IMG/VR virus record: IMGVR_UViG_3300044643_002868
Span: 1 to 38,750 of that record
DNA from: a virus
Direction: 5' to 3' (one strand)
Length of the DNA: 38,750 nt
This document shows positions 301-38,394 of this stretch, piece by piece (the stretch's first letter is position 1; each line of letters opens with the position of its first letter). The notes under the pieces are model-generated. The model ran no database searches. It was given only the letters and a program-made list of their open reading frames with translations, and was not told where the DNA came from. The position numbers were made by a program, and so were the translations under genes.

Positions 301-2121
301 ATGTCTAATATAATACAAAATATTGATTATAATATACCTAAAGATGGTTATGTTGCGTTTGATGCACTAACTCTTAAAGATTTTATTACTCAACGACTCA
401 CCGAAGAGGGTACATTCGCTGACCAAATATACGAAGGTAGTAATCTCGCATCTATAGTTGAGATTATAGCTTATTCATACCACGTATTAATGTTCTATCT
501 TAATACAACAGCGTCTGAGACCGCATTTACTCAGGCATCTTTATATGAAAATATGAACAAGATTGTTAATCTTGTAGGTTACAAACCTACAGGTAAACAA
601 ACATCAGTTTGTGCTATACGTGCTGTAGCAAACGCTAGCCTTGCAGCAGGAAGCTATCTACTTAAGAGATATTCATTCTTTAACGTTGGTAACATACAAT
701 ATACTTTTACTAAGGACTATAACTTCTCAAAAACAACAGCTGGCATAGAAGAATTAGAGGAATTAAACGATACTGTGATTTTATATCAAGGTACTGTGCA
801 GCAATACCCTGTATATACCGCTTCGGGTGATGTATTTGAAACTTTCCCTGTAGTAGTTACGAATATTGTTGATAGCAATGACACAAAGTTTATTTCAAGT
901 GGGTCAATTAGTGTGTATGTAAAAGAAGCTACCTCTAACAAGTATTATGAATATACCGAAACAGGTAATATCTATTTATCACAAGGTTACGATCGTGTAT
1001 ATGATTTAAGACTCAATGAAAATGGAAATTATGAAGTAAAGTTTGGTAATGATGTATTTGGACGTCAGCTTCAAGCGGGAGACCAGGTAGTTGTCTATTA
1101 TATAGTATCTGACAACATCAACGGGTCTATTAGTCGTAACGCAATCGGTGGAGCACTCTATGAATATACTACAAGCTTATTTGATACTATATACAATGAT
1201 GTAAAGGGTATAAACACACCGGCTCCCCTAACCTCTATACAACGTAGCTATATAACTTTTAGTAATCCTAGCAACTCTACCGTTGTAGGTGATAGTGAAA
1301 CAATAGAGCAAATGAGAGTTAATGTTCCAAAATATGTTTCATCAAATTTTAGGCTTACAACAGCACGAGATTATACAGTTTATTTACAAAAGAGCTTAAA
1401 TAAGCTCGCGCAGTCAGTATATGTTGCCTCTAATGATGAATTTCTAAATGAATATATTAATTACTTTTATAAAATAAGTGTTGATCCTTCAAGAGTTAAT
1501 CGCGTGCTTTTAAATCAGGTTAATTTCGCTGATAGCTGTGATTTTAATAATGTTAATGTATTTTGTGTACCGACATTTAACATAGATATAGATGATTATG
1601 TGCCTGATTTTATGCCTGCTTCGTTCAAGAATCTTATTGTAGATTCAACGCAGTCTATAAAAACAATAGGAACGGAGGTTGTTCCGCGTGATCCAGTCTA
1701 TGTTGCATTTAAAATAGGTATAAGCAATAAGTCTACAATCTACACAACAACAGCAGATAGTTGCCGTATAGTTATTAAGCGTGATCCTGGTGCGGGTATA
1801 TCAAAGGACTCTATTAAGAGTAAGGTTGTTAACACAATAAAGGAATTTTTTGCTTCATCAAATAATACCCTAGGACAGAATGTATCTTTAAGTGATTTAT
1901 CCTCAAAAATCCTTAGTATTGCTGGAGTGCGAAGCATTCAGACTATAAATAAAGCGGAAGATATTACATTTAATGGTATATCATTTATTACTTGGAATCC
2001 ACTATACCCAGAAGTAGATGTAGCGCTAATGAACCAAGATACTAAACTTCCTTTCTTTAAGTTTCCCTACTTAATGTATCCAGTAACAATAAGCAACTAT
2101 ATAGATATCGTAGATGAGTAA
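301..2121 (+). CDS. gp6: Baseplate wedge subunit gp6
   Basis: 606 residues, close to the 660 of T4 gp6. The N-terminal third, with an alpha-helical 'GSNLASIVEIIAYSYHVLMF' stretch (residues about 46-65) followed by 'ASLYENMNKIVNLVGYKP', is the family's most conserved part. In T4, gp6 dimers form the inner ring that links neighbouring baseplate wedges. The context supports this: it lies 2 nt after gp25. The C-terminal region contains a 'SLSDLSSKILSIAGVRSI' segment like the J/gp6-type baseplate fold. The gene ends TAA and overlaps the next start by 8 nt, suggesting translational coupling. No SD precedes the ATG. Confidence 0.88.
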   Translation: MSNIIQNIDYNIPKDGYVAFDALTLKDFITQRLTEEGTFADQIYEGSNLASIVEIIAYSYHVLMFYLNTTASETAFTQASLYENMNKIVNLVGYKPTGKQTSVCAIRAVANASLAAGSYLLKRYSFFNVGNIQYTFTKDYNFSKTTAGIEELEELNDTVILYQGTVQQYPVYTASGDVFETFPVVVTNIVDSNDTKFISSGSISVYVKEATSNKYYEYTETGNIYLSQGYDRVYDLRLNENGNYEVKFGNDVFGRQLQAGDQVVVYYIVSDNINGSISRNAIGGALYEYTTSLFDTIYNDVKGINTPAPLTSIQRSYITFSNPSNSTVVGDSETIEQMRVNVPKYVSSNFRLTTARDYTVYLQKSLNKLAQSVYVASNDEFLNEYINYFYKISVDPSRVNRVLLNQVNFADSCDFNNVNVFCVPTFNIDIDDYVPDFMPASFKNLIVDSTQSIKTIGTEVVPRDPVYVAFKIGISNKSTIYTTTADSCRIVIKRDPGAGISKDSIKSKVVNTIKEFFASSNNTLGQNVSLSDLSSKILSIAGVRSIQTINKAEDITFNGISFITWNPLYPEVDVALMNQDTKLPFFKFPYLMYPVTISNYIDIVDE

Positions 2122-4135
2122 TATAATCTCGGGTATAACTGTTACAGATTTTAGAGGAAGTACAACTTCCCTCTCTTCTTTTAATTTAAGCCTGACTCCA
2201 CTAACGTTCACACCAGTATATGGAAGCTATGTTGGAGTACCACCTTTAATCACCTGGAGTTTTGGTGATGGTGATACCTCTACTTCACAATCACCTGTAC
2301 ATGTATATAAATACCCGGGTTTATATAAAGTAACATTAGAATATTATGATCAAAATAAGAATCAGGTTATTTCAACACAGACACGTAATGTAAGCGTGTT
2401 TGATTACATTAATGATAATTTTAATGTAACATTATCAACTACTTTTGGTAACAATACTCTTTCAACTACACCCGGTGCCATTGTCGGTCCGTTGATTATA
2501 ACACAAACAACACCATTTTACAGTACTGATAATACAATTTTTTATTACGTTACAGGATCTAATACAATTAATTATTTCTTAGCACCTGAAAATAAATTTA
2601 AGCACTTATCACCATATCACTGCTTGTTTAAACGACTTACAAGTACAAATAATATTGTAGAATTGCAGGAAATAGAAAAAATTCAGCTAAATAAAACATC
2701 GTTATACACTTATATATCTAATAACGCATTAGTAACAACATCAATAAGTAGTCCTAATACAATCCTAGCAGGTTTTTCTGGATCAGGCGTATATTTTTAT
2801 CGCGATGATTACACTACCAATCGTTTTAACATTATTTTTAATAGAGGTATAAATGATTATAGTAATACAATGAATATTAATCTAAGCGGTCTGGTTACAG
2901 TACCTGTTTTGTCTGCTTCTCTAAGACCAACAGGTATAACTATTACATCAACCGGTATAGATGGTGATAGTTTACCTATTAGCTCATTTAATATTAATAA
3001 GATAAAATTTGCTAATACAAAGATACCGTTCGTAGTTAAGCTTAAGGATATTTCACAAAACACGTGTAAGTGGACTAAGCAAGTCTTTCCCAATACGAAC
3101 TGGACGTATATCATTAGTGCGGGTGGTTTGCCTAGTAATTATAATTCTTACACTGTAACATCTTTAAAGAATACAATAACAGGATTTACGCCTGATTTTT
3201 ATAGGGGCTCGATTACATTTAGTAATGTAATACAGCCTTTAAGTAATATAAGACTAGCTGTATCTGCTATTGATACAAATAATTTCTTTAATATAATTAC
3301 AGGTGTTACGCAGCCATTTGATGTTTTTCCAAAAGACTATTATACTGTATATAAACAAAATGAAAATTTTGACGCTGAGGGCATGTTCAAGAGTTTGCGC
3401 TTTTCAGAGTCACTTTTAGATACAGATACTTTCTTTGAAAAGTTTCTTGGAACCATATTTGGAGACACAGCGCCAGATATTGATGCATTAGGTAAAAAGG
3501 TTTACGAGCGAATAGGTAACTTTGTTGATAATACTGCTAATGTTAATACAACGGAGATTACAAGTTTGATAGATCAGGGCAAAATGCTAGATATGAATAT
3601 AGCGCCTGCAGGAGGTTTTCCTGTTAATAGCCCTAATCATATAAAGCGATTAATAAATTTATTCTCTATAAATAAGAATAATTTAATAGGTGAGCAAAAT
3701 AAGTTTGCACAAAACTTTGACGATAAAGGATTTTTTACGAGAGACGTATACGGTAAGAATCTAGGTAGTCAGATTAATGTAAATGCACCTATTAATTTAA
3801 GTACACCGTATGTTGTTGGTTTTGAGAAGTTTAGCAATGTTTATACTTTATTAAGCGCACCGTTTACTAACAACTTTATTATTAGTAATTATAATACTAC
3901 TTGGAACTGGCCTATTAACCTACCTGATAATTTTACATCAGAAGACTTAGGTAGATACTATCTATTTTTTACATATATAGATACAATCGATGGTACTAGC
4001 GTTGGTAATATTATTGATTTTAATACATCAAACATACCTAAAACTATTTCATACAGTGAGCTTTATGGTGACAGTGGCGTTGTTGAAAATATGCTATTAA
4101 ATACACTTTATATATCCCTTTCACTAACTAAATAA
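2114..4135 (+). CDS. PKD-domain tail/baseplate protein (possible gp7-position wedge protein)
   Basis: 673 residues. Residues about 28-98 form a clear PKD (Ig-like) domain: 'WSFGDGDTS' at 48-56 and 'HVYKYPGLYKVTLEY' starting at 63. The middle is beta-rich with many Asn/Thr/Ser, as in phage adhesive proteins. The C-terminal third is more helical ('FFEKFLGTIFGDTAPDID...') and may be the part that docks on the baseplate. It starts inside the gp6 stop region (8 nt overlap), where T4 has gp7, but I cannot show homology to gp7. A virion structural role is inferred from fold and position. Confidence 0.6.
   Translation: MSNIISGITVTDFRGSTTSLSSFNLSLTPLTFTPVYGSYVGVPPLITWSFGDGDTSTSQSPVHVYKYPGLYKVTLEYYDQNKNQVISTQTRNVSVFDYINDNFNVTLSTTFGNNTLSTTPGAIVGPLIITQTTPFYSTDNTIFYYVTGSNTINYFLAPENKFKHLSPYHCLFKRLTSTNNIVELQEIEKIQLNKTSLYTYISNNALVTTSISSPNTILAGFSGSGVYFYRDDYTTNRFNIIFNRGINDYSNTMNINLSGLVTVPVLSASLRPTGITITSTGIDGDSLPISSFNINKIKFANTKIPFVVKLKDISQNTCKWTKQVFPNTNWTYIISAGGLPSNYNSYTVTSLKNTITGFTPDFYRGSITFSNVIQPLSNIRLAVSAIDTNNFFNIITGVTQPFDVFPKDYYTVYKQNENFDAEGMFKSLRFSESLLDTDTFFEKFLGTIFGDTAPDIDALGKKVYERIGNFVDNTANVNTTEITSLIDQGKMLDMNIAPAGGFPVNSPNHIKRLINLFSINKNNLIGEQNKFAQNFDDKGFFTRDVYGKNLGSQINVNAPINLSTPYVVGFEKFSNVYTLLSAPFTNNFIISNYNTTWNWPINLPDNFTSEDLGRYYLFFTYIDTIDGTSVGNIIDFNTSNIPKTISYSELYGDSGVVENMLLNTLYISLSLTK
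4127..4134 (+). promoter_or_regulatory. Degenerate late-promoter-like element
   Basis: ACTAAATA, two mismatches from TATAAATA, ends 6 nt before the ATG at 4141. It overlaps the end of the preceding gene. The spacing matches the exact late elements in this window, but the match is weak and AT-rich chance is possible. Confidence 0.3.
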
Positions 4136-4140
4136 ACGTA

Positions 4141-6420
4141 ATGAGTTTAAACTCGCTCAAATATCCTCCTGTTCCAAGCTCGATAACTAACCCTGCGGCT
4201 AAATCAAGTGATGTAAAGGATGTTGCTTCGCCTTTTGGCCTTTTAGAGTTTATTAAATTAACTGCAGAACTTGTTAGCAATGAAATAGTAACACAGTATT
4301 ATAATCATTACATTACATTATGGAGCACCTATAAGTCAGATAAAGAGACTACAGCCGCTCAACACGTTGTGAACTCTTATACAGAGTTTTTAAAGGATAT
4401 ATCGTTGCAATTTAATACAATATCTGAAAATAAATTTTTAACTAATATAGATTATAGCGATCCTTACGATCTAGACGTTTTATTAACGTTTATTACACGC
4501 AAGATAAAAGATATAACAGTTTACTATAGCAACGCTCGTGAGCAAATTAAGCTTCAACCAAGTAGGTTAAAACTTAAAGCATCAACTGTTGGTACTAGTA
4601 CAGGTCTTAGAGAGCGGGTTATTCAATTCTTTAAAGAAAAGCAAATTAATATAAACACGCAAACAGTTAGTGTTACTATTGATGAATTATATGATGTAAG
4701 TGGCGATTATTTTAATAGACCGCCGAGTATTGTGCCATATGGCAGCCAGGATATTGATTTTGATATAGATATATTTTTAAAAGATAATGTAACATTGTTG
4801 CAAGAAGCGTTTCAAGATGCCACTAACGCTATTATAGAGGCACAAAACAATGAAACTTTAAATCTATCACCGAATAGTGTCGCTGTGTTTAGTTATGGTG
4901 AATATAATGAAGTGTTTACAAATAAGCGCGATTTAACTAAAAAGTATATGGGTACTGACTTTTATTATGTTTCAGGTAGACCTATAGAAAGCAGGTTGCC
5001 TAATATAAACGTACCAGGTACTCTTTTGTATAATCCAAGTACACCAGAGCAGCCTGTCGGTGGATGGATATGTATAGGTAGACCTCCAAAATGCGTTTTT
5101 TCATTTACAGGCGGTAGCCCTACTCTTGCACAGTGTAAATTAGATTGCACAACAACGCCACCGCCCTATTTACCCCCTCCACCACCACCTCCTGTCTGTA
5201 TTGAAGGTGAATGGACAGTGGATTGCTGTGATTACGAATGGCGTCAAACAGAGTGCTGTGCTGCACGCCCCTGGGATCCGAGATGTAGTGGTTTTCCACC
5301 GCCACCACCACCGACAACTCCAGTGCCACCGCCAACACAACCACCTGTTCCACCTGTTCCACCACCGCCTCCACCGCCTCCACCGCCTCCACCGCCGCCA
5401 CCGCCGCCACCTCCACCACCGCCGCCTCCGCCGCCTCCGCCGCCTCCGCCGCCACCGCCACCGCCGCCTCCGCCACCTGATCCAGATCCGGAACCGGTGT
5501 ATCGCTGGGCGTGTTTAACAAAACAGTACACTTTAGGCGAGTCTCAACTTCAAGGCTATTGCGAGAAATACCTATTAGGCGAACTACCACCTGGTCCTAA
5601 CCAGTCAACAGGGTGGGAAACAGAGAGTGTCTGTAAGTCTAACTGTATACCGTTTTGGAGATGTAATACGGAAACCGATGGTTGGGTAAACGATGGTATC
5701 TGCAAGCAATATGTAGGTGCTGAGAGATGCCTCAATGCAAATTTTAGTACTTTACAAGAGTGTAGAAATACATGTAATCTACCGAGATGGAAGTGCGCAA
5801 CTCTCGATGGCGATTCGTATTGTAAAAGAGCCGCTACAACGAGTGAGGATGCACCATGGTTACGCTTAACAGATTGTATTACTAATTGTGTTCTTGAACC
5901 TGAATGGACTGACCTTGTAGACTCAAGTCCAGCGACTTGCGAGCCTTGTAGGTTATTCAGTGTTATTCAAGTAGCCAATGAATATCACAATTTAGCGTTC
6001 GATGCGTATGATTTTTACTGGCAATTATGGGGCAAGACTACCCAAAGTGTCTTTGGTACAGTAGGACCCGCGGATCCGGTGTGTTTTGTAAATTATGTAC
6101 CTCAAGCGAGCCATCCAAAAATCGGATCTGCTACATTCAACAATGGTCAACCCTTTGGTTTAACCAAAGGGATTCCAGCGAGCTCGAGTACAAAATATAA
6201 AGTTATTGCAAAAGAAACGGGCAACGATGGTGGTGGGTTTATATGCTCACCGTCTACAGAGGCTATAATTAATTTTCAGCAAACTTCGTTTCCTGTCGAC
6301 TACACCGCATGGAATAATTACGGTGGTACAACTGGTCCTCCGTATACAGGGCGCTGTATAGTTCGAACTATGGGGTTCGATGCGATAGCTAGACCGTATC
6401 CTGCTGCTCAAGGAATCTAA
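4141..6420 (+). CDS. Tail structural protein with 40-proline linker and cysteine repeats
   Basis: 759 residues in three parts. Residues 1-300 are a largely helical domain that looks like a virion attachment domain. Residues about 309-583 hold four W-x-C ... C ... C-x3-C repeats, split by a proline-rich region with 40 uninterrupted prolines (407-446) and an extra cysteine-rich stretch ('VDCCDYEW...ECCAARPWDPRC'). Residues about 590-759 are a globular C-terminus. The proline run would be a stiff polyproline II rod that projects the C-terminal part. I recognise no exact family; a tail fibre, spike or baseplate decoration role is inferred from location. The opposite strand carries long poly-Gly/Ala shadow frames that are not genes. 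It ends TAA. Confidence 0.65.
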   Translation: MSLNSLKYPPVPSSITNPAAKSSDVKDVASPFGLLEFIKLTAELVSNEIVTQYYNHYITLWSTYKSDKETTAAQHVVNSYTEFLKDISLQFNTISENKFLTNIDYSDPYDLDVLLTFITRKIKDITVYYSNAREQIKLQPSRLKLKASTVGTSTGLRERVIQFFKEKQININTQTVSVTIDELYDVSGDYFNRPPSIVPYGSQDIDFDIDIFLKDNVTLLQEAFQDATNAIIEAQNNETLNLSPNSVAVFSYGEYNEVFTNKRDLTKKYMGTDFYYVSGRPIESRLPNINVPGTLLYNPSTPEQPVGGWICIGRPPKCVFSFTGGSPTLAQCKLDCTTTPPPYLPPPPPPPVCIEGEWTVDCCDYEWRQTECCAARPWDPRCSGFPPPPPPTTPVPPPTQPPVPPVPPPPPPPPPPPPPPPPPPPPPPPPPPPPPPPPPPPPPPPPDPDPEPVYRWACLTKQYTLGESQLQGYCEKYLLGELPPGPNQSTGWETESVCKSNCIPFWRCNTETDGWVNDGICKQYVGAERCLNANFSTLQECRNTCNLPRWKCATLDGDSYCKRAATTSEDAPWLRLTDCITNCVLEPEWTDLVDSSPATCEPCRLFSVIQVANEYHNLAFDAYDFYWQLWGKTTQSVFGTVGPADPVCFVNYVPQASHPKIGSATFNNGQPFGLTKGIPASSSTKYKVIAKETGNDGGGFICSPSTEAIINFQQTSFPVDYTAWNNYGGTTGPPYTGRCIVRTMGFDAIARPYPAAQGI
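5065..5889 (+). repeat. Four W-x-C...C...C-x3-C protein repeats
   Basis: In the protein starting at 4141, repeat units run at residues 309-336 (C311, C318, C332, C336), 456-502 (C458, C474, C498, C502), 506-545 (C508, C521, C541, C545, extra C530) and 550-583 (C552, C561, C579, C583). Each begins Trp-x-Cys and ends Cys-x3-Cys. The first lies before the polyproline rod and three lie after it. The spacing suggests small disulphide- or metal-stabilised modules. Confidence 0.75.
5359..5478 (+). repeat. (CCN)40 tract encoding 40 consecutive prolines
   Basis: Forty proline codons in a row (CCG, CCA and CCT mixed, no CCC), flanked by shorter proline runs on the N-terminal side from about 5299 and by DPDPEP on the C-terminal side. 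The mixed codons show the run is kept at protein level and is not a pure trinucleotide expansion. The tract is much more GC-rich than the rest of the window. Confidence 0.95.
6151..6171 (+). other. Perfect inverted repeat within coding sequence
   Basis: Ten-base arms (6151-6160 and 6162-6171) around a single T, CCCTTTGGTT / AACCAAAGGG, near the 3' end of the polyproline protein gene. It could form a strong mRNA hairpin. There is no T-run after it, so it is not a typical terminator. Confidence 0.5.
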
Positions 6421-9662: not shown

Positions 9663-10172
9663 ATGAACTTTTTTTTATTACCTCTAAGCGCTACACCTAG
9701 CGTTTTTAATTATTTTCAAAATGAAATTATATTCACTGACACGACGAGTGTGACTCTATCGACTTTTAGTTTACCTTTTCATGAGAACCTGGTACCTTTA
9801 TCGTTAAAAATAAACTGGGGTGATAATAGCCAGATAGAGAGCTATCAAGCAAACTTTTATTCTCTAACATCAAGGATCATCTCTGCAACAAAACCAGATA
9901 TATTTTTACAAAACTATAATCACACCTATAATACTTCAATCAGTACTTTAACGCGTGTTTTAACCTGTCAGGTTGTAGTTTCTTACATAGATAACAGGCA
10001 ATACTACTTCAACATACCAATAAGAATTATATCACCATCGTTCTTTAAGAAGGTAGGAGACATATATCTCCAAAAATCAAGCATTCTCACGAATGGTAAT
10101 AATTTTTATGTGTTTAGTGTACAGGAAGATGGGGCGATCGTTGAAACAGTTCTCAATAAATCTAGTATATAA
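9663..10172 (+). CDS. Small PKD/Ig-like tail protein
   Basis: 169 residues, beta-rich throughout. 'KINWGDNSQIESY' (W52, G53, D54) followed by 'YNHTYNTS' matches the W-G-D-G/N ... H-x-Y spacing of PKD-type Ig folds, so it looks like one free-standing domain plus flanks. It lies 11 nt after the 1066-residue protein and 12 nt before the next large gene, and is probably co-transcribed with them. A structural role (small fibre cap or connector) is inferred. It has no SD and no exact promoter of its own. Confidence 0.5.
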   Translation: MNFFLLPLSATPSVFNYFQNEIIFTDTTSVTLSTFSLPFHENLVPLSLKINWGDNSQIESYQANFYSLTSRIISATKPDIFLQNYNHTYNTSISTLTRVLTCQVVVSYIDNRQYYFNIPIRIISPSFFKKVGDIYLQKSSILTNGNNFYVFSVQEDGAIVETVLNKSSI

Positions 10173-15790: not shown

Positions 15791-16720
15791 ATGCGAAAAC
15801 TAACAATAGGAATGTGTTATTTTGATGATTTTGATGGTGTTTATTTTACTGTACAGGCTTTGCGTCTATTTCATAAAGAGATCTTAAACGAAATAGAATG
15901 GGTGTTTGTTGATAATAACTACGGATCACCACAAAGTGAGCTCGCAAAACAGTTTATTACAAACCATGTAAAGGAGCCTTATAAATTAATACCCTTTACC
16001 AGATTTACAGGTACATCGCTGCGTAATATTATTTTTGAGGTGTCAGACACCCCATATACTCTCTCAACTGACTGTCATGTTTTGTTTGAACCAGGCTCTC
16101 TTAAAAAATTAATTCAATACTATGATGAGGGTCATGATGATGGTAACTTATTACAAGGTCCTCTTATATACGACTCTATTAGTGAAAATAGCGTTTCTAC
16201 GCACTTTAAAAGGGAGTGGGGCGTACTTAACGGCACTGATAAATCTGCCGGTATGTTAGGAAAGTGGGGTTATGATTCAAGATATGTAAATAGCGATTCA
16301 CCGCCCTTTGAAATTGAATGTCAGGGCCTGGGAGTGTTTTCATGCAGAACATTAAATTGGCTAAAGTTTAATTCTGCGTTTCAAGGATTTGGCGGCGAAG
16401 AGTTTTATATTCATGATAAATATAGGATAAACGGTAAGAAGGTAATATGTCTACCGTTTTTAGGCTGGGTACATCGATTTTTTAGAGAGAGAACTCCTTA
16501 TCCGAATTTTTGGGAGCATAGATATCGGAATTACTTAATAGGTAGGATTGAATTAGGTCAAGATGTTGATGACGTAGAAGAGGCCTTCAAAGGCGCACTA
16601 AGTGAAGAAACAAAAGAATTAATTCGAAAAGAGGTTGTTGAGCTCTTTAATAGTAAATTTGAAATAAAATCTTGCAACTGCAAGGGTAAAGGTACAATAA
16701 CAGCACCGCCTAGTAATTAG
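15791..16720 (+). CDS. GT-A glycosyltransferase (family 2-like)
   Basis: 309 residues. The N-terminal Rossmann-like part has 'WVFVDNNYGS' (37-46) and the metal-binding position reads STDCHV (D94-x-H96), a D-x-H motif as in some GT-A enzymes instead of the more common D-x-D. 'GFGGEEFYIHDKYRINGKKV' fits the family's acidic (E/D)(E/D) catalytic region, and 'LGWVHRF' a late conserved His. The last 15 residues contain Cys-x-Cys. It lies at the end of the tail gene block, so it may glycosylate a virion protein or host-surface glycan; DNA glucosylation is less likely from position. It ends with TAG, which matters for judging the amber codon in the polymerase gene. Confidence 0.7.
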   Translation: MRKLTIGMCYFDDFDGVYFTVQALRLFHKEILNEIEWVFVDNNYGSPQSELAKQFITNHVKEPYKLIPFTRFTGTSLRNIIFEVSDTPYTLSTDCHVLFEPGSLKKLIQYYDEGHDDGNLLQGPLIYDSISENSVSTHFKREWGVLNGTDKSAGMLGKWGYDSRYVNSDSPPFEIECQGLGVFSCRTLNWLKFNSAFQGFGGEEFYIHDKYRINGKKVICLPFLGWVHRFFRERTPYPNFWEHRYRNYLIGRIELGQDVDDVEEAFKGALSEETKELIRKEVVELFNSKFEIKSCNCKGKGTITAPPSN

Positions 16721-17758: not shown

Positions 17759-18184
17759 ATGACTACATTTGGAAATTGTTTTTTACGAGTCTTAAGCGAA
17801 CAGGATGAAGATAGAGCAGCTATGCTTTCAACCCTAGACAAAGGTACAAATCCTGAAGATTTTGATACAGACACTACTGAGCCTACGGATATGAATAATC
17901 CTAACGCTGCAATATCAAAAGCTCTATCGGAAAGAGAAGCAGCCATGGTATCTCAAGTACGTGAGTGGGTTGCGAGCATGGAAGAGTTTCTTGAAAATTT
18001 AAATGGTACGGAAAACTCCATTCAGACTGCATTAGCGAGCGCGGAGGCTGATACACTTTTAGATAAAATGAAGCAATCAGAGCAAAGAAAAATAGCAAGA
18101 GTTGCAACAGAATTAGCTGCTTTAGCGGAATCGTTCAAGGGCTTTTTAGCTCAAGCAAACAACTCATCTTTAAAGTACGTCTAA
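17759..18184 (+). CDS. Putative internal head protein with capsid-targeting-like N-terminus
   Basis: 141 residues. The N-terminus MTTFGNCFLRVLSE-Q has the layout of T4 capsid-targeting propeptides (short amphipathic start, Phe at 4 and 8, then L12-S13-E14, matching the (L/I)-x-E cleavage rule of the gp21 prohead protease). Processing would leave 127 residues: an acidic disordered stretch, then a long Ala/Glu/Lys-rich helical or coiled-coil region (about 50-140). It is a lone plus-strand gene among minus-strand early genes and has late elements directly upstream. A packaged and possibly injected internal protein is inferred. The stop overlaps the primase gene stop by 4 nt. Confidence 0.55.
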   Translation: MTTFGNCFLRVLSEQDEDRAAMLSTLDKGTNPEDFDTDTTEPTDMNNPNAAISKALSEREAAMVSQVREWVASMEEFLENLNGTENSIQTALASAEADTLLDKMKQSEQRKIARVATELAALAESFKGFLAQANNSSLKYV

Positions 18185-25494: not shown

Positions 25495-26146
25495 GCTTAC
25501 CTTTCCATTTTTCCAGGAACCACTTTTGACCCTCATTGAACTCTGGTGTAAATTCTTTTAACCCTGGCGATGCGTGTGTAATCATAATATCCGATACCCC
25601 GATCTTAAATTTTTCTTTATGACAAGAGAGAGAGTAGTCAAGATCGTAAAAATGAAATCCTGCTGGGTTCGTTTCATCAAATCTTACCTTAGTAAAAACT
25701 TCCCTCTTAATGCATAAAAATACACCATCAAGTAGGAGCACTTGTTTAGGATAAGGTCCAAAAGAGGTCATAGTTTTATTTTTTTCATCTCCATGAGCTA
25801 CTGCACCGTGAAGTTTACCGCTACCAAATCCACCTCCCATAATATGCCAGAGAACGGGCTCCTGTAATTTACATTCTGTTGTACCAGCCACTCCAATAAC
25901 ATCAAAATCTTGCATTATAGAGGGCAATCTATAAGCAAGATCTGATTCGATAACTACATCATCATGGCATAATACAATAGCGTCAAAATTTTCCTCAATA
26001 GCAAAATCAATAGCCTTGTTATATACTTTTGGAAGAGTCTCAGTGTTATTCTCTTTAAAAATAAAACTATTGTATGTAGAGTGATTCTTTACTAATAGTG
26101 TATCTTTTCTACTCCCCTTAGTTGCTGAAAAATAAAATATATTCAT
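25490..26146 (-). CDS. GT-A glycosyltransferase (family 2-like)
   Basis: 218 residues. 'NFDAIVLCHDDVVIESDL' gives the nucleotide-sugar/metal site (D62-D63), followed by 'FDVIGVAGTTECK', 'LLLDGVFLCIKREVF' and 'FHFYDLDYSLSCHKEKFKIGV', the order of a compact GT2-like domain with a (Y/F)D-x-D acceptor-site motif. It starts in an ATGA overlap with the amidotransferase gene, so it belongs to the HhH-amidotransferase-GT operon. The acceptor is unknown; DNA base or nucleotide modification is possible in this replication-gene context. Confidence 0.7.
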   Translation of the reverse strand: MNIFYFSATKGSRKDTLLVKNHSTYNSFIFKENNTETLPKVYNKAIDFAIEENFDAIVLCHDDVVIESDLAYRLPSIMQDFDVIGVAGTTECKLQEPVLWHIMGGGFGSGKLHGAVAHGDEKNKTMTSFGPYPKQVLLLDGVFLCIKREVFTKVRFDETNPAGFHFYDLDYSLSCHKEKFKIGVSDIMITHASPGLKEFTPEFNEGQKWFLEKWKGKL

Positions 26147-26808
26147 AAAAATAAGAATGGTGATTTGGTTTCGAAGTGGTTAACCACTTCCCATGTTTTA
26201 AAATCTTTAAGCATTAAGATTGTACCCTCAGGTACCGCTTTAAATCCTTCTCCACCTAGTGTAGAGAAATCACCGTGGTCGTTATAGTGTAGTACTGAGC
26301 CTTGTCTAGCAATATAAACATCGTTACAGTCAGTATCCATCATACATAACGCAAAAGTACCTTCTAGTAAATTTAAAACCCGCTTAATAATCTCATGTGC
26401 CAGGCATTCACCTTTACATTCCTCAGTAAATTGCTGTAATAAATTAGAAATTACAGCTGTATCCACAGGATTAACGTCCCAATCAATATATTTTGCTCTA
26501 ATTTGTTCGTGGTTAGTAAGAACACCATTATGAACCACTGACCAAGATAGTGATTCGAAAGGGTGTGACGTATCATATGACCATGTACGCTTAGCAGATG
26601 TAGGTGCCTGAACGTGTCCTACAAAATAATCACATCTATTATCTAATTTTACTTGATCAAAATCTAACGTCCCTTGTTTCTTAATGACCATTTGATCGTC
26701 TCCATTATGCAAGCACACAACTCCAGTAGCAAAATTACCGCGTGGTAAATTACCAGCATACATAACTTCAAACTTTGATACATTACTAGCTCCTACTATA
26801 GCACACAT
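26143..26808 (-). CDS. Class II glutamine amidotransferase (stand-alone Ntn domain)
   Basis: 221 residues. Begins MCAIVGA: after Met removal, Cys2 is the N-terminal nucleophile of class II (GATase_6-type) enzymes. Other family hallmarks are 'GHVQAPTSAKRTW', 'SWSVVHNGVLTNHEQIR' (H-N-G, oxyanion region), 'VDTAVISNLL' and 'LEGTFALCMMDTD'. There is no synthetase or isomerase domain, so ammonia must be passed to a partner. A QueC-like protein is encoded 1.8 kb away on the same strand (28617), which would make a split Gat-QueC pair for 7-deazaguanine modification; alternatively it serves the neighbouring glycosyltransferase. The start overlaps the HhH stop by 1 nt. Confidence 0.82.
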   Translation of the reverse strand: MCAIVGASNVSKFEVMYAGNLPRGNFATGVVCLHNGDDQMVIKKQGTLDFDQVKLDNRCDYFVGHVQAPTSAKRTWSYDTSHPFESLSWSVVHNGVLTNHEQIRAKYIDWDVNPVDTAVISNLLQQFTEECKGECLAHEIIKRVLNLLEGTFALCMMDTDCNDVYIARQGSVLHYNDHGDFSTLGGEGFKAVPEGTILMLKDFKTWEVVNHFETKSPFLFL

Positions 26809-28616: not shown

Positions 28617-29360
28617 TTAAATACAATTCTTTTCTTCATATATCCCATTAAGTTTATCTTGTTGTAGATACTTAATGGGATCTCTATATCCAGCTTCAAT
28701 AAATCCTTGAAGTCTTAAACTACTTGCCGGAGTAGTAGCATCAGCAAGACCATCCTCTCTGTTACTATAACATGTCCATGTGTTCTCGAACCGTACACCT
28801 AGTTTTATACCTTCTCGTATAATATCTGCTTTCGATAGGGAGAGCAATGGAGCTTCAATGAGGATCCTATGTTGTCTGTTAAGAGATGATAACTGATTAA
28901 TACTATCAACAAACTCTTGTGATCCATCCCAGTAACCAGCTAGTGAGTCTACTTGCGCTGCACCGTACCAAACCGCCTCTGCACCGAGACTCTCCGCGTA
29001 AGCACAGCAAATCGTAATAAACATCTGATTACGAAACGGAACATATGAAACGGGTTGTGCATCACCAGCGATTTTACTTATATCTGGATTATCAATTTCT
29101 AGATTTGTTAACGAGGACGTAGGAGAGATATCCTTTAGATAACTTACATCTAATACTTTATTTGTAAATTTAACATTAGGGTATTTCTCTTCAAGACTCC
29201 ATTTTTGAAGCGGCACACATTGCATTTCACGGCGATGTCTTTGACCATAATCGAAGGTTACGGTATGAATTTCTTCATAGCCTCTATCTGCCGCCATAAA
29301 GAGAAGTACAGATGAATCCATACCTCCAGAAAATGCTAAAACTACTTTTTTATGCTTCAT
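28617..29360 (-). CDS. queC: QueC-like 7-cyano-7-deazaguanine synthase, zinc motif degenerate
   Basis: 247 residues (usual QueC about 220-240). The ATP-pyrophosphatase P-loop 'AFSGGMDSS' (9-17), 'FDYGQRH', 'SYVPFRNQMF' and 'LSLSKADIIREGIKLGV' are intact. QueC makes preQ0 from CDG, ATP and ammonia. The C-terminal zinc site, usually one Cys in 'SCY' plus C-x2-C-x2-C, keeps only Cys197; the other three positions read Asp207, Thr210 and Ser213, while the flanks 'TWTCYSN' and 'LRLQGFIEAGYRDP' align in frame. It overlaps the uvsX end by 11 nt and is probably co-transcribed with it. An SD-like AGAGGA lies 8 nt before the ATG. It may act with the amidotransferase at 26143. Confidence 0.85.
   Translation of the reverse strand: MKHKKVVLAFSGGMDSSVLLFMAADRGYEEIHTVTFDYGQRHRREMQCVPLQKWSLEEKYPNVKFTNKVLDVSYLKDISPTSSLTNLEIDNPDISKIAGDAQPVSYVPFRNQMFITICCAYAESLGAEAVWYGAAQVDSLAGYWDGSQEFVDSINQLSSLNRQHRILIEAPLLSLSKADIIREGIKLGVRFENTWTCYSNREDGLADATTPASSLRLQGFIEAGYRDPIKYLQQDKLNGIYEEKNCI
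28642..28681. other. Hairpin at 3' end of late gene, inside queC
   Basis: Perfect 12-bp inverted repeat (28642-28653 and 28670-28681) with a 16-nt loop, 25 nt after the stop of the plus-strand late gene. No T-run on either strand. Its position parallels the true terminator at 18211. Confidence 0.4.
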
Positions 29361-31221: not shown

Positions 31222-31249
31222 TATATAGTGGTATTATTATTAAAATCAA
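31222..31249 (-). promoter_or_regulatory. Early promoter TTGATT-N16-TATATA
   Basis: Minus strand: TTGATT (31249-31244), 16-nt spacer, TATATA (31227-31222), 6 nt to the ATG at 31215. The polymerase gene's TGA stop (31248-31246) lies inside the -35 box. Confidence 0.7.
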
Positions 31250-33267
31250 CAGCTAAATAAATCAAACAATTCTGTTCTAACGTTGTCAGTAGGTTTTCGA
31301 ATTTGCCAGTTTACATTATTGTAAAATCTCTCAATAGAGTTATAGAGAATTTTCTCGAACATTTTTTCATAATCTATCTTAAATTCCTCGTTATATTGTT
31401 CAGGTAAATTATACTTAAAACCTATCACATCAACCCCGTACTTATTAGGCTGAGTTGTATAATAAAAACGTATCTTGTCTCCTGATGTTATGTTTTCATG
31501 TTGTTTTTCTATGCTTAATTTTTTGTTAATAAAGTTATGCAAATAAGCTGCCTTTACATGTATAGGTGTACCTTTTGCAATTTCAAATTCTTTGCATTTA
31601 CTAGCGTATTTCTCATATCCCTTAACACCCATAACAAAGGCTATATCCTGTATCGGTAGAGTTTTAAAGACATCATATGCTTCCGCTAGTATTCTATTTG
31701 TCTCGTGGTGCGATTGAGTAAGTAGCATTGTCTCAATAATTTTTTTTGCATATGGCTTTACTGCATTAGGCATAGAGGTACGTACAACCTCTACACCTGT
31801 ATATTTAAATTTATTTACTTTAATACCCTCGTCGTCAAGAATGTGCATCACATATCTCTTTTTCTGAAGAAATAACCCTACATCAGCAATGCACTCTCTT
31901 TTAAAGACAAATCTACTATCTACGGTTCGTAACGTTTTTATTGCCCAATCGGTAATATTTTTATTAAGATATTTTTCAATACGATCCACCTCTCCGTAAA
32001 ATTGTGGAGTAATATCACCGGTTGCATCTTTAATAGGTACTTGGTTTTGTATACTGTCAAGTGAGAAATAACAGCTATCAGTATCAGAATAAATCCAACT
32101 CTCATCCAGTGTAAGTGGATCGGTTATACTATAGGTTTCTGTTAAATATGACTGCAGAAGTTTACCTGCTTGTTTAATAATTGCTTGTCCGGTCAGTGTT
32201 ACAGATGATGCAATATCATCATCACCAATCGGAGCTTGTTTATTGCCCATGTATCCATATGCTGAGTTAATAAGAATCTTAATAACCATTTGCTTTGTAT
32301 TCAGACGCTCAACTTCATATTGAACAGAAGTATATTCTTTATCTTTTTTCGAAAGTGTGTTAAGTTTCTTTTTAAGATTGTATAGAGTTCCTTTTATACT
32401 CACGCGTTCTTGATAATAATAATCAAGAAATTCTGGGATAATACCTTGCTTCTTTTGCGTAAAGAGAAACCCGGCTTTTGTTAATGCACATTTTTCCGAT
32501 TTAATAAATTCGTTAAACTTTGCCGGTGTAAGCTCAATACACTGACCATTAACATGATATATGTTAATATTATTATTATTGTTCTTCTCAACTCGACCTA
32601 TTTTTGTCTCAGGTGATAAATTTAAAGATATCATTACACTTGGATATAGAGAGTTAGCGTCAAATGATACTATATTTTTTTTGAACCCTGATTTGGGTTC
32701 TGCTACATAAGCACCAGGATTCTTACCATCAATTCCTTTTCTTACAAAGGTAGACATTATTTCGCCCCGCTTTCTTGCTCTTATAGCCAGGGCTCCGTTA
32801 ATTACAGAAATAGTTCCCATGGCTCCCTCTAGTGTAGTCAAGCCGACATAAGCAAGCATTCTCAGTAGCGTAACATACTGTAGCTTTTCTTCTAACCGAA
32901 CAATAAGGTTGACGTCTTGAATGTTGTAATCAACAAATGTCTGCCATTGTGTATCGGCGAGAGTACACAGATCGATGTTACCGTAATCAATCTTACGCTC
33001 ATTCAATTCAATTTCCCCGATAGCATCCAGTTTATATGACTCTCTTAAAGATAAACAAAAACGTCTATATATATCAAGATAATCAATACACGAAATACCA
33101 TCAATAAAATATCTTTTTTGCTGTTTTCCGAATTTTCCTAGCACCTCACGATAGTGAACTCGACCTACCGGTGATAACCTTTCGACATACTCTTGACCTA
33201 GAATCTTTTCGCAGCGGTTAATAATATACGGAATATCAAAAAATTCAGAGTTCCAACCGGAGAGCAC
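31246..33267 (-). CDS. gp43: DNA polymerase gp43, part after the amber codon
   Basis: The stated end is the first GTG usable as a restart; the frame is open to 33471, directly after the TAG. From the GTG it has 673 residues with Exo II 'LSGWNSEFFDIPYI' (D11), Exo III 'YNIQDVNL' (D118), motif A 'FDANSLYPSVMISLNLSPET' (D203), motif B 'KILINSAYGYMGN' and motif C 'IYSDTDSCYF'. This is a complete family B palm, fingers and thumb. If read through the amber, the whole protein is 857 residues, close to T4 gp43 (898). A product starting at the GTG would lack the Exo I aspartate and the N-terminal domain. It ends TGA within the next promoter. Confidence 0.88.
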   Translation of the reverse strand: MLSGWNSEFFDIPYIINRCEKILGQEYVERLSPVGRVHYREVLGKFGKQQKRYFIDGISCIDYLDIYRRFCLSLRESYKLDAIGEIELNERKIDYGNIDLCTLADTQWQTFVDYNIQDVNLIVRLEEKLQYVTLLRMLAYVGLTTLEGAMGTISVINGALAIRARKRGEIMSTFVRKGIDGKNPGAYVAEPKSGFKKNIVSFDANSLYPSVMISLNLSPETKIGRVEKNNNNNINIYHVNGQCIELTPAKFNEFIKSEKCALTKAGFLFTQKKQGIIPEFLDYYYQERVSIKGTLYNLKKKLNTLSKKDKEYTSVQYEVERLNTKQMVIKILINSAYGYMGNKQAPIGDDDIASSVTLTGQAIIKQAGKLLQSYLTETYSITDPLTLDESWIYSDTDSCYFSLDSIQNQVPIKDATGDITPQFYGEVDRIEKYLNKNITDWAIKTLRTVDSRFVFKRECIADVGLFLQKKRYVMHILDDEGIKVNKFKYTGVEVVRTSMPNAVKPYAKKIIETMLLTQSHHETNRILAEAYDVFKTLPIQDIAFVMGVKGYEKYASKCKEFEIAKGTPIHVKAAYLHNFINKKLSIEKQHENITSGDKIRFYYTTQPNKYGVDVIGFKYNLPEQYNEEFKIDYEKMFEKILYNSIERFYNNVNWQIRKPTDNVRTELFDLFSC

Positions 33268-33471
33268 ATCCGGGTAATCGGCTTCAATATAATTAATAAA
33301 TTTTAAAAAAAGATCTCGCTCATTCTTACACTTATAATAAACTACCCGTGTGTCAGTATTGTTGTAATCATTAAGACCAAAGGTAAAAAACTTTTTACTG
33401 AAGCTATCGTAGCACGTTATAACGTTGACAGTATCTTGCGGATCATCAACATTCGGAAACCCAGTGGGTGA

Positions 33472-33474
33472 CTA
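33472..33474 (-). other. In-frame TAG (amber) interrupting DNA polymerase
   Basis: The single codon ACT-TAG-TCA separates '...VTFLDIET' from 'SPTGFPNVDDPQDTVNVITC', both clearly family B polymerase sequence in the same frame with no base gained or lost. Three other genes here end in TAG (15791, 18181, 38381), so a general TAG reassignment is not obvious. Confidence 0.9.
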
Positions 33475-33819
33475 AGTCTCAATATCTAAAAAAGTTACCT
33501 TTAGCGGCTTCGAGGTAAATGCCTCACTTTCATTATCGCGCCAAAATGTATCAATAAGGTATTGCTGTACTACCGGTAAGTTCTCATACACTCTGGTAAT
33601 ACCTGAATCACTTATAAACTTATTGCGATTATAACTATTTGTAAAAGTCTTTTTTTTCGCGCGAGTACCGTAGATGGTTTTCTTATCTCCGGCATTATCT
33701 TCTATATAAAGATAAGGTGAAACAGATAAATCATACGATACTCTCTTACCCTCTACATCCCAAGTAAAAAGTCTTATTGACTGTGTACGGCTGTTATAAA
33801 CACAATTACGAAAGGACAT
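33472..33819 (-). CDS. gp43: DNA polymerase gp43, N-terminal part up to the amber codon
   Basis: 115 residues: the N-terminal domain ('NCVYNSRTQSIRLFTWDVEGK', 'SPYLYIED') ending with exonuclease motif Exo I 'TFLDIET' (D112, E114). The codon after T115 is TAG. The following 68 codons (33471-33268) continue the same frame with typical polymerase sequence, so the two parts were one gene. By itself this fragment would have no activity. It is preceded by the strongest promoter in the window and by a 24-bp palindrome. Nonsense mutation, sequencing error, suppression and readthrough are all possible. Confidence 0.85.
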   Translation of the reverse strand: MSFRNCVYNSRTQSIRLFTWDVEGKRVSYDLSVSPYLYIEDNAGDKKTIYGTRAKKKTFTNSYNRNKFISDSGITRVYENLPVVQQYLIDTFWRDNESEAFTSKPLKVTFLDIET

Positions 33820-38366: not shown

Positions 38367-38394
38367 ATAATATATTAATACTAAGAGATATCAA
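38367..38394 (-). promoter_or_regulatory. Early promoter TTGATA-N16-TATTAT for gp55
   Basis: Minus strand: TTGATA (38394-38389), 16-nt spacer, TATTAT (38372-38367), then 6 nt to the ATG at 38360. The -35 overlaps the 3' codons of uvsW. Confidence 0.78.

Follow-up and report, generated by a model that had tools for sequence, protein, structure and literature searches.

The window analysed here, i.e. the whole stretch of 38,750 nucleotides of the IMG/VR virus record IMGVR_UViG_3300044643_002868, carries a DNA polymerase gene in which a single codon is an in-frame TAG, and the question that this locus raises is whether that TAG is something the phage makes use of (a recoded codon, the seam of a split enzyme, a regulatory stop) or an accident in the letters of the contig.

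With the TAG read as sense, positions 33819-31246 of the minus strand form a single 857-residue open frame whose only internal stop is this codon (...KVTFLDIET*SPTGFPN... in translation); what was found is thus not the uninterrupted frame of a gp43-type polymerase, one TAG being present at codon 116. The Pfam domains exo (PF03104) and pol (PF00136) and the family phrog_262 (E 6e-200, residues 2-843) all span the TAG site, and the nearest solved structure is RB69 gp43 (E 1.3e-60). In an alignment of 35 sequences both sets of motifs were present and invariant: D112/E114 (Exo I), F194/D195 (Exo II) and Y298/N299/D302 (Exo III) for the exonuclease, and D387..SLYP, K514/N518/YG, D579TDS and K653K654/Y656 for the polymerase. 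In an AlphaFold model (35 sequences, mean pLDDT 88.4) D112 and E114 lie on a strand (108-115), and residue 116 opens the loop that comes next. Compared with T4/RB69 gp43 (PDB 1clq and relatives; phrog_262) the window enzyme is homologous over its full length and shares the Exo I-III and palm motifs; its codon 116 aligns with the Thr that follows DIEV in RB69 gp43, and the gene differs by its one internal TAG. The alignment with full-length relatives continues through the TAG at 71-80% identity, and the identity to the enzymes of cultured phages is around 30%; no near DNA match to the window was found among cultured phages, and a search of bacterial and archaeal genomes for a clue to the host returned no relative. 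The gene of the window encodes a T4-type DNA polymerase of the ordinary, single-chain kind. The earlier note had described an 857-residue family B polymerase with all motifs and one TAG directly behind FLDIET, and in this it was right: the frame, the Pfam and PHROG matches and the 35-sequence alignment agree, and the coordinates of the TAG (see the table) are correct.

Features of the interrupted polymerase gene, of the other TAG-ended genes of the window and of two genuinely split polymerase (PolB) loci (coordinates of the last two refer to their own contigs).
Feature	Position	Strand	Remarks
T4-type family B DNA polymerase gene (gp43 homologue)	31246..33819	-	857 codons and TGA stop; one internal TAG
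In-frame TAG, codon 116	33472..33474	-	Tyr (TAT/TAC) or Phe in 129/132 distinct relatives
Exo I residues D112-I-E-T115	33475..33486	-	end of predicted strand 108-115; next codon is the TAG, first of the loop
115-codon upstream ORF	33472..33819	-	product expected under standard termination
673-codon ORF from first in-frame GTG (V185)	31246..33267	-	without visible upstream ribosome-binding site
Primase-like gene	ends with TAG at 18181		readthrough would add 9 residues
UvsW-like gene	ends with TAG at 38381		readthrough would add 1 residue
Glycosyltransferase-like gene	ends with TAG at 16720		readthrough would add 36 residues
L126 split PolB	N-ORF 480-902; HNH-type ORF 926-1732; C-ORF 1714-4074
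L323 split PolB	N-ORF 2488-2919; HNH-type ORF 2971-3834; C-ORF 3800-6088

What the codon had been could be read from the relatives, which were recovered in four IMG/VR scans (46-80% identity) and comprised 142 distinct polymerases after removal of duplicates, 132 of them covering codon 116. The codons found there were TAT (72), TAC (38), TTT (13), TTC (6), ACT (2) and GCC (1), which amounts to Tyr in 110, Phe in 19 and another residue in three; the two ACT readings come from L034 and L062, where a 49-residue insertion behind DIET shifts the alignment, and the single GCC belongs to the cultured phage S-N03. None of the 132 has a stop at this codon, and the conserved stop that would go with programmed readthrough is likewise absent among them. 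The comparison with close relatives that had been proposed in the earlier note thus returned an aromatic codon nearly throughout; its further suggestion that the position would tolerate Gln, Glu, Tyr or Ser held for Tyr, the other three being seen in no relative. Since the relatives carry Tyr, the window TAG lies one third-base transversion (TAT or TAC to TAG) from the ancestral codon. The DNA pattern F-x-DIET-TAG was retrieved from IMG/VR in 14 stretches, none of which encodes a polymerase, and another pattern search, for the same strain with any TAN codon at the site, yielded no record, very near records possibly lying outside the set searched. Neither the 142 distinct relatives (~121,000 codons) nor the C-terminal parts of 80 more distant polymerases contained an isolated nonsense codon outside the genuine splits, and the window TAG is therefore a private singleton.

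The state of the gene behind the TAG was assessed over codons 117-857, for which the pairwise dN/dS of the window against three relatives (L001, L007 and L008) was 0.044-0.068, as compared to 0.02-0.07 between relatives in the same region; synonymous sites are near saturation and all of these values are rough. Amino-acid relative-rate counts put the window slightly ahead of the L001-L007 group and equal to L008, the private nucleotides of the gene number 35 in the window versus 34 in the comparable lineage L008, and private residues at otherwise invariant columns number four, within a range of 0-8 among the relatives. As far as substitution patterns can tell, this shows purifying selection acting on the polymerase downstream of the TAG. 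Gene decay was ruled out by the dN/dS and the private-substitution counts, and because the polymerase is not decaying the TAG, if real, must be very recent or suppressed. Close to the TAG the window has T119 (Asp in 31 of 36 relatives) and D129 (codon 33433-33435, minus strand; His in all 36 closest relatives), and the pair T/G at 119-120 stands where relatives mostly have D and S/T. The changes D119T and H129D are unusual for the family and were counted against an error. The unusual residues 119, 120 and 129 cluster near the TAG, for which we offer no explanation.

Also counted against an error is that the position of the TAG coincides exactly with a natural break at which an endonuclease gene divides other polymerases. 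In four contigs (L123-L126; IMGVR 3300010885_037880, 3300010334_002320, 3300009154_004484 and 3300022602_000058), with polymerases ~54% identical to that of the window, the frame ends a little way beyond DIET (...FIDIETDCHNVKDSKKIKIRKKTIS*), the N-terminal part is followed by an ORF with an HNH-like motif (HNH_4, E 0.0024, below the curated cut-off), and the remaining polymerase begins at its own ATG (MSEQEVTLGHFRNNKLWEQDYEVWDEKTGTWIDYF...); both polymerase parts carry tails, and an out-of-frame duplicate FLDIETYK* lies ahead of the endonuclease ORF. A search with the HNH-type ORF recovered these four and a fifth contig, L323, whose polymerase is only 32% identical to that of the window and breaks at this DIET too, the tails (...SLDIETNTGNKYTVLNNKMVKIRKKST* and MYDVFEINLNDLSSYKDDCEVFDEEKQKWVSI...) being similar; its HNH-type ORF, matched at 39% identity, is preceded by a duplicated IDIETDK fragment. 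Judged from these ORF arrangements, the PolB gene of five IMG/VR contigs is genuinely split directly after the Exo I DIET by a putative HNH-type endonuclease ORF, and the pattern suggests that the DIET site has been invaded repeatedly. Among the 80 more distant polymerases only L323 proved to be really split, the upstream frames being open in the 31 whose aligned part began before DIET. Two contigs, L034 (from 6001) and L062, have an unsplit polymerase in which DIET is followed by ~49 extra residues resembling the tails seen in the split genes (KVKI...TVGEL...VWDEKKEIWVKI). Interruptions were also found elsewhere in the gene: the polymerase of L302 (~2001-2060) is split in the fingers region by a TAG with an in-frame ATG ~20 bases on (MTKEQLLARK...) and has no endonuclease gene, and that of L073 (6001-9780; also L064 and L074-L076) has an in-frame insertion of ~400 residues at residue 190 (Exo II), which in L073 was recognised by the Pfam models for intein splicing and LAGLIDADG. 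At 9997-10033 of the plus strand L034, a phage contig, also matches the abiF RNA family (RF03085) with 40.0 bits (cut-off 37).

If the TAG were such a break, the window would encode a naturally split, two-subunit polymerase, in which an N-terminal chain of 115 residues pairs with a C-terminal chain that has a start of its own. The after-DIET junction is genuinely used in L123-L126 and in the divergent L323, a split without an endonuclease gene exists in L302, and Aeromonas phage 25, in which an endonuclease gene splits gene 43, is known to have an active two-chain enzyme (PMC2988022). The interrupted T4-type frame in an isolated gene is shared with the 43A/43B genes of Aeromonas phages 25 and 44RR (PMC2988022); these are, however, two cistrons with either an endonuclease gene or an untranslated stretch inserted between them, whereas the window differs by one base and has no second start. 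Likewise, the break falls at the same residue as in the five split contigs, but the N-ORF tail, the HNH-type ORF and the C-ORF, which there has an ATG of its own and a tail at its N terminus, are all missing from the window, in which no tails, endonuclease ORF, second start or insert were found and the codon spacing is that of the unsplit relatives, without extra residues. All split relatives have a nearby ATG for the C-terminal part, while in the window there is no in-frame ATG, GTG or TTG between the TAG and codon 185. The earlier note had correctly named the GTG at V185 as the first possible start behind the TAG; it is 207 bases downstream, initiation there would lose Exo I and the neighbouring strands, and no Shine-Dalgarno-like sequence was seen upstream of it. 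A downstream restart was thus rejected, there being no start codon with a ribosome-binding site, and the proposed enzyme without Exo I, an arrangement that no relative has, is not supported; the proposed deliberate short N-terminal product fared no better, since it was found in no relative and the surroundings of the TAG offer neither a start codon nor a ribosome-binding site. A split enzyme is, in our judgement, very improbable. The same low standing is given to the reading of the TAG as a homing-linked scar or resistance change, left by repair after HNH cleavage of the sequence encoding DIETYS or arisen as an escape from such cleavage: the HNH-type ORFs that two divergent polymerase lineages carry at this very site and the private residues 119, 120 and 129 in the adjoining loop speak for it, but around codon 116 there is no indel, duplicated exon fragment or change of nearest relative, the HNH relatives are few (five contigs), and a nonsense codon in an essential gene would be a poor escape route unless suppressed. 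Two further possibilities were rejected at the site. A group I intron is excluded by the codon spacing and gave no Rfam match in the window or the interrupted relatives, nor was any other RNA family matched at the TAG; a recombination or chimeric junction is excluded by the nearest relatives, which do not change there (the scan covered all but the last few codons). As to an RNA readthrough structure, a short, wobble-rich hairpin includes the TAG, but it is unexceptional within the gene (~3% of its 25-base windows fold equally well; z -0.88 for 121 bases) and is absent from the relatives.

A TAG that is real and read through by an amber-suppressor tRNA, of the host or from the rest of the phage genome, would give a full-length polymerase, possibly at a lowered level, and would fit the strong constraint on the part downstream. 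The window is a linear fragment of 38.75 kb, and related records reach 105-122 kb, so that a tRNA could lie outside it; suppression in vivo is conceivable because about two thirds of the genome fall beyond the window. One related record has a small tRNA cluster (Ile, Arg), and suppressor tRNAs that originate from a single change in the anticodon have been described in crAss-like phages (PMC7886860). Neither the suppressor tRNA-CUA nor the further in-frame TAGs that the earlier note would have looked for turned up in the DNA examined: no tRNA was found in the window, and no suppressor anticodon in the window or in the DNA of the relatives examined (ARAGORN, normal and relaxed, and Rfam), where only ordinary tRNAs occur (Ile and Arg in the record of L008, Thr in L044). 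In a tblastn comparison of the ORFs of six related contigs against the window, all homologous window genes were intact, with neither a second in-frame TAG nor a frameshift; the polymerase TAG was the sole in-frame intragenic stop, and the remaining stops were gene ends, start-site differences or in non-coding frames. TAG ends 4 of the 40 long ORFs of the window (10%, polymerase N-ORF included), as it does 4-10% of those in the relatives, and three of the four are, by comparison, true gene ends: the relatives of the primase-like, UvsW-like and glycosyltransferase-like genes stop at the same place or a few residues off, with TAA or TAG. Suppression by phage or host, one of the options of the earlier note, thus gained no positive support from tRNAs, second TAGs or terminator use, nor from any relative with a stop at codon 116, and we consider it unlikely, though it keeps some probability. 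Somewhat more doubtful still is its stronger form, in which the TAG is real, fixed and decoded as an aromatic residue by a host or phage tRNA-Tyr(CUA), with the level of polymerase tied to suppression at a tolerant loop codon beside Exo I. That the whole contig uses a TAG-reassigned code (code 15-like) deserves practically no credence: an in-frame TAG in a core gene is the usual first sign of such codes, but only one occurs in ~40 genes, terminator use is normal, and the three genes above still end with TAG where their relatives end, by which code 15 (TAG=Gln) for the whole contig is largely refuted. Recoded crAss-like phages (PMC7886860) share with the window an in-frame TAG in a core phage gene; they have many, mostly in late genes and often with a suppressor tRNA, whereas the window has one, no suppressor was found and TAG still ends genes.

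On balance, the TAG is probably an isolated single-base anomaly at a Tyr codon, either a base error of the contig or a recent nonsense variant, and not a recoding, splitting or regulatory device. Its letters are present in the sequence; as a biological device it is probably not real. The ancestral codon, the intact constraint downstream and the absence of a second broken gene are established, and error or recent origin is what we infer for the TAG itself. Gene 43 is essential in T4, and an unsuppressed nonsense allele is therefore unlikely as the majority of a population, which favours an error over a fixed mutation. On these comparative grounds an error in the assembled contig would be the most likely cause, followed by a nonsense variant of recent origin that some of the sampled population carries; accordingly, sequencing error or defective mutant is the option of the earlier note that survives best, given a singleton TAG in a constrained gene and no other broken gene. 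An argument against an error is that nothing else in the window is amiss, which means that the contig is not prone to errors in general. The coincidence with a known type of break point can be put at roughly 1%, judged after the fact, as 4 of the 411 possible nonsense point mutations of the gene fall within one codon of the DIET junction (from codons 115-117). In this phage the enzyme at work would be all 857 residues long and have an aromatic residue (Tyr) at position 116.

Two further genes of the window were annotated, both on the minus strand: 28617-29360 encodes a PP-loop protein with a FSGGMDSS motif (read by eye; QueC-like), and 26143-26808 a protein with a glutamine amidotransferase domain (Pfam). 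Together they possibly represent a deazaguanine DNA-modification set.

A real and suppressed TAG would make this phage, otherwise of standard code, a rare case of an essential replication gene that is conditional on one amber codon. For a lone stop in a single metagenomic contig, a call of recoding needs both relatives and reads. The HNH-type ORF that splits PolB right after the DIET of Exo I is a more solid lead than the window TAG.
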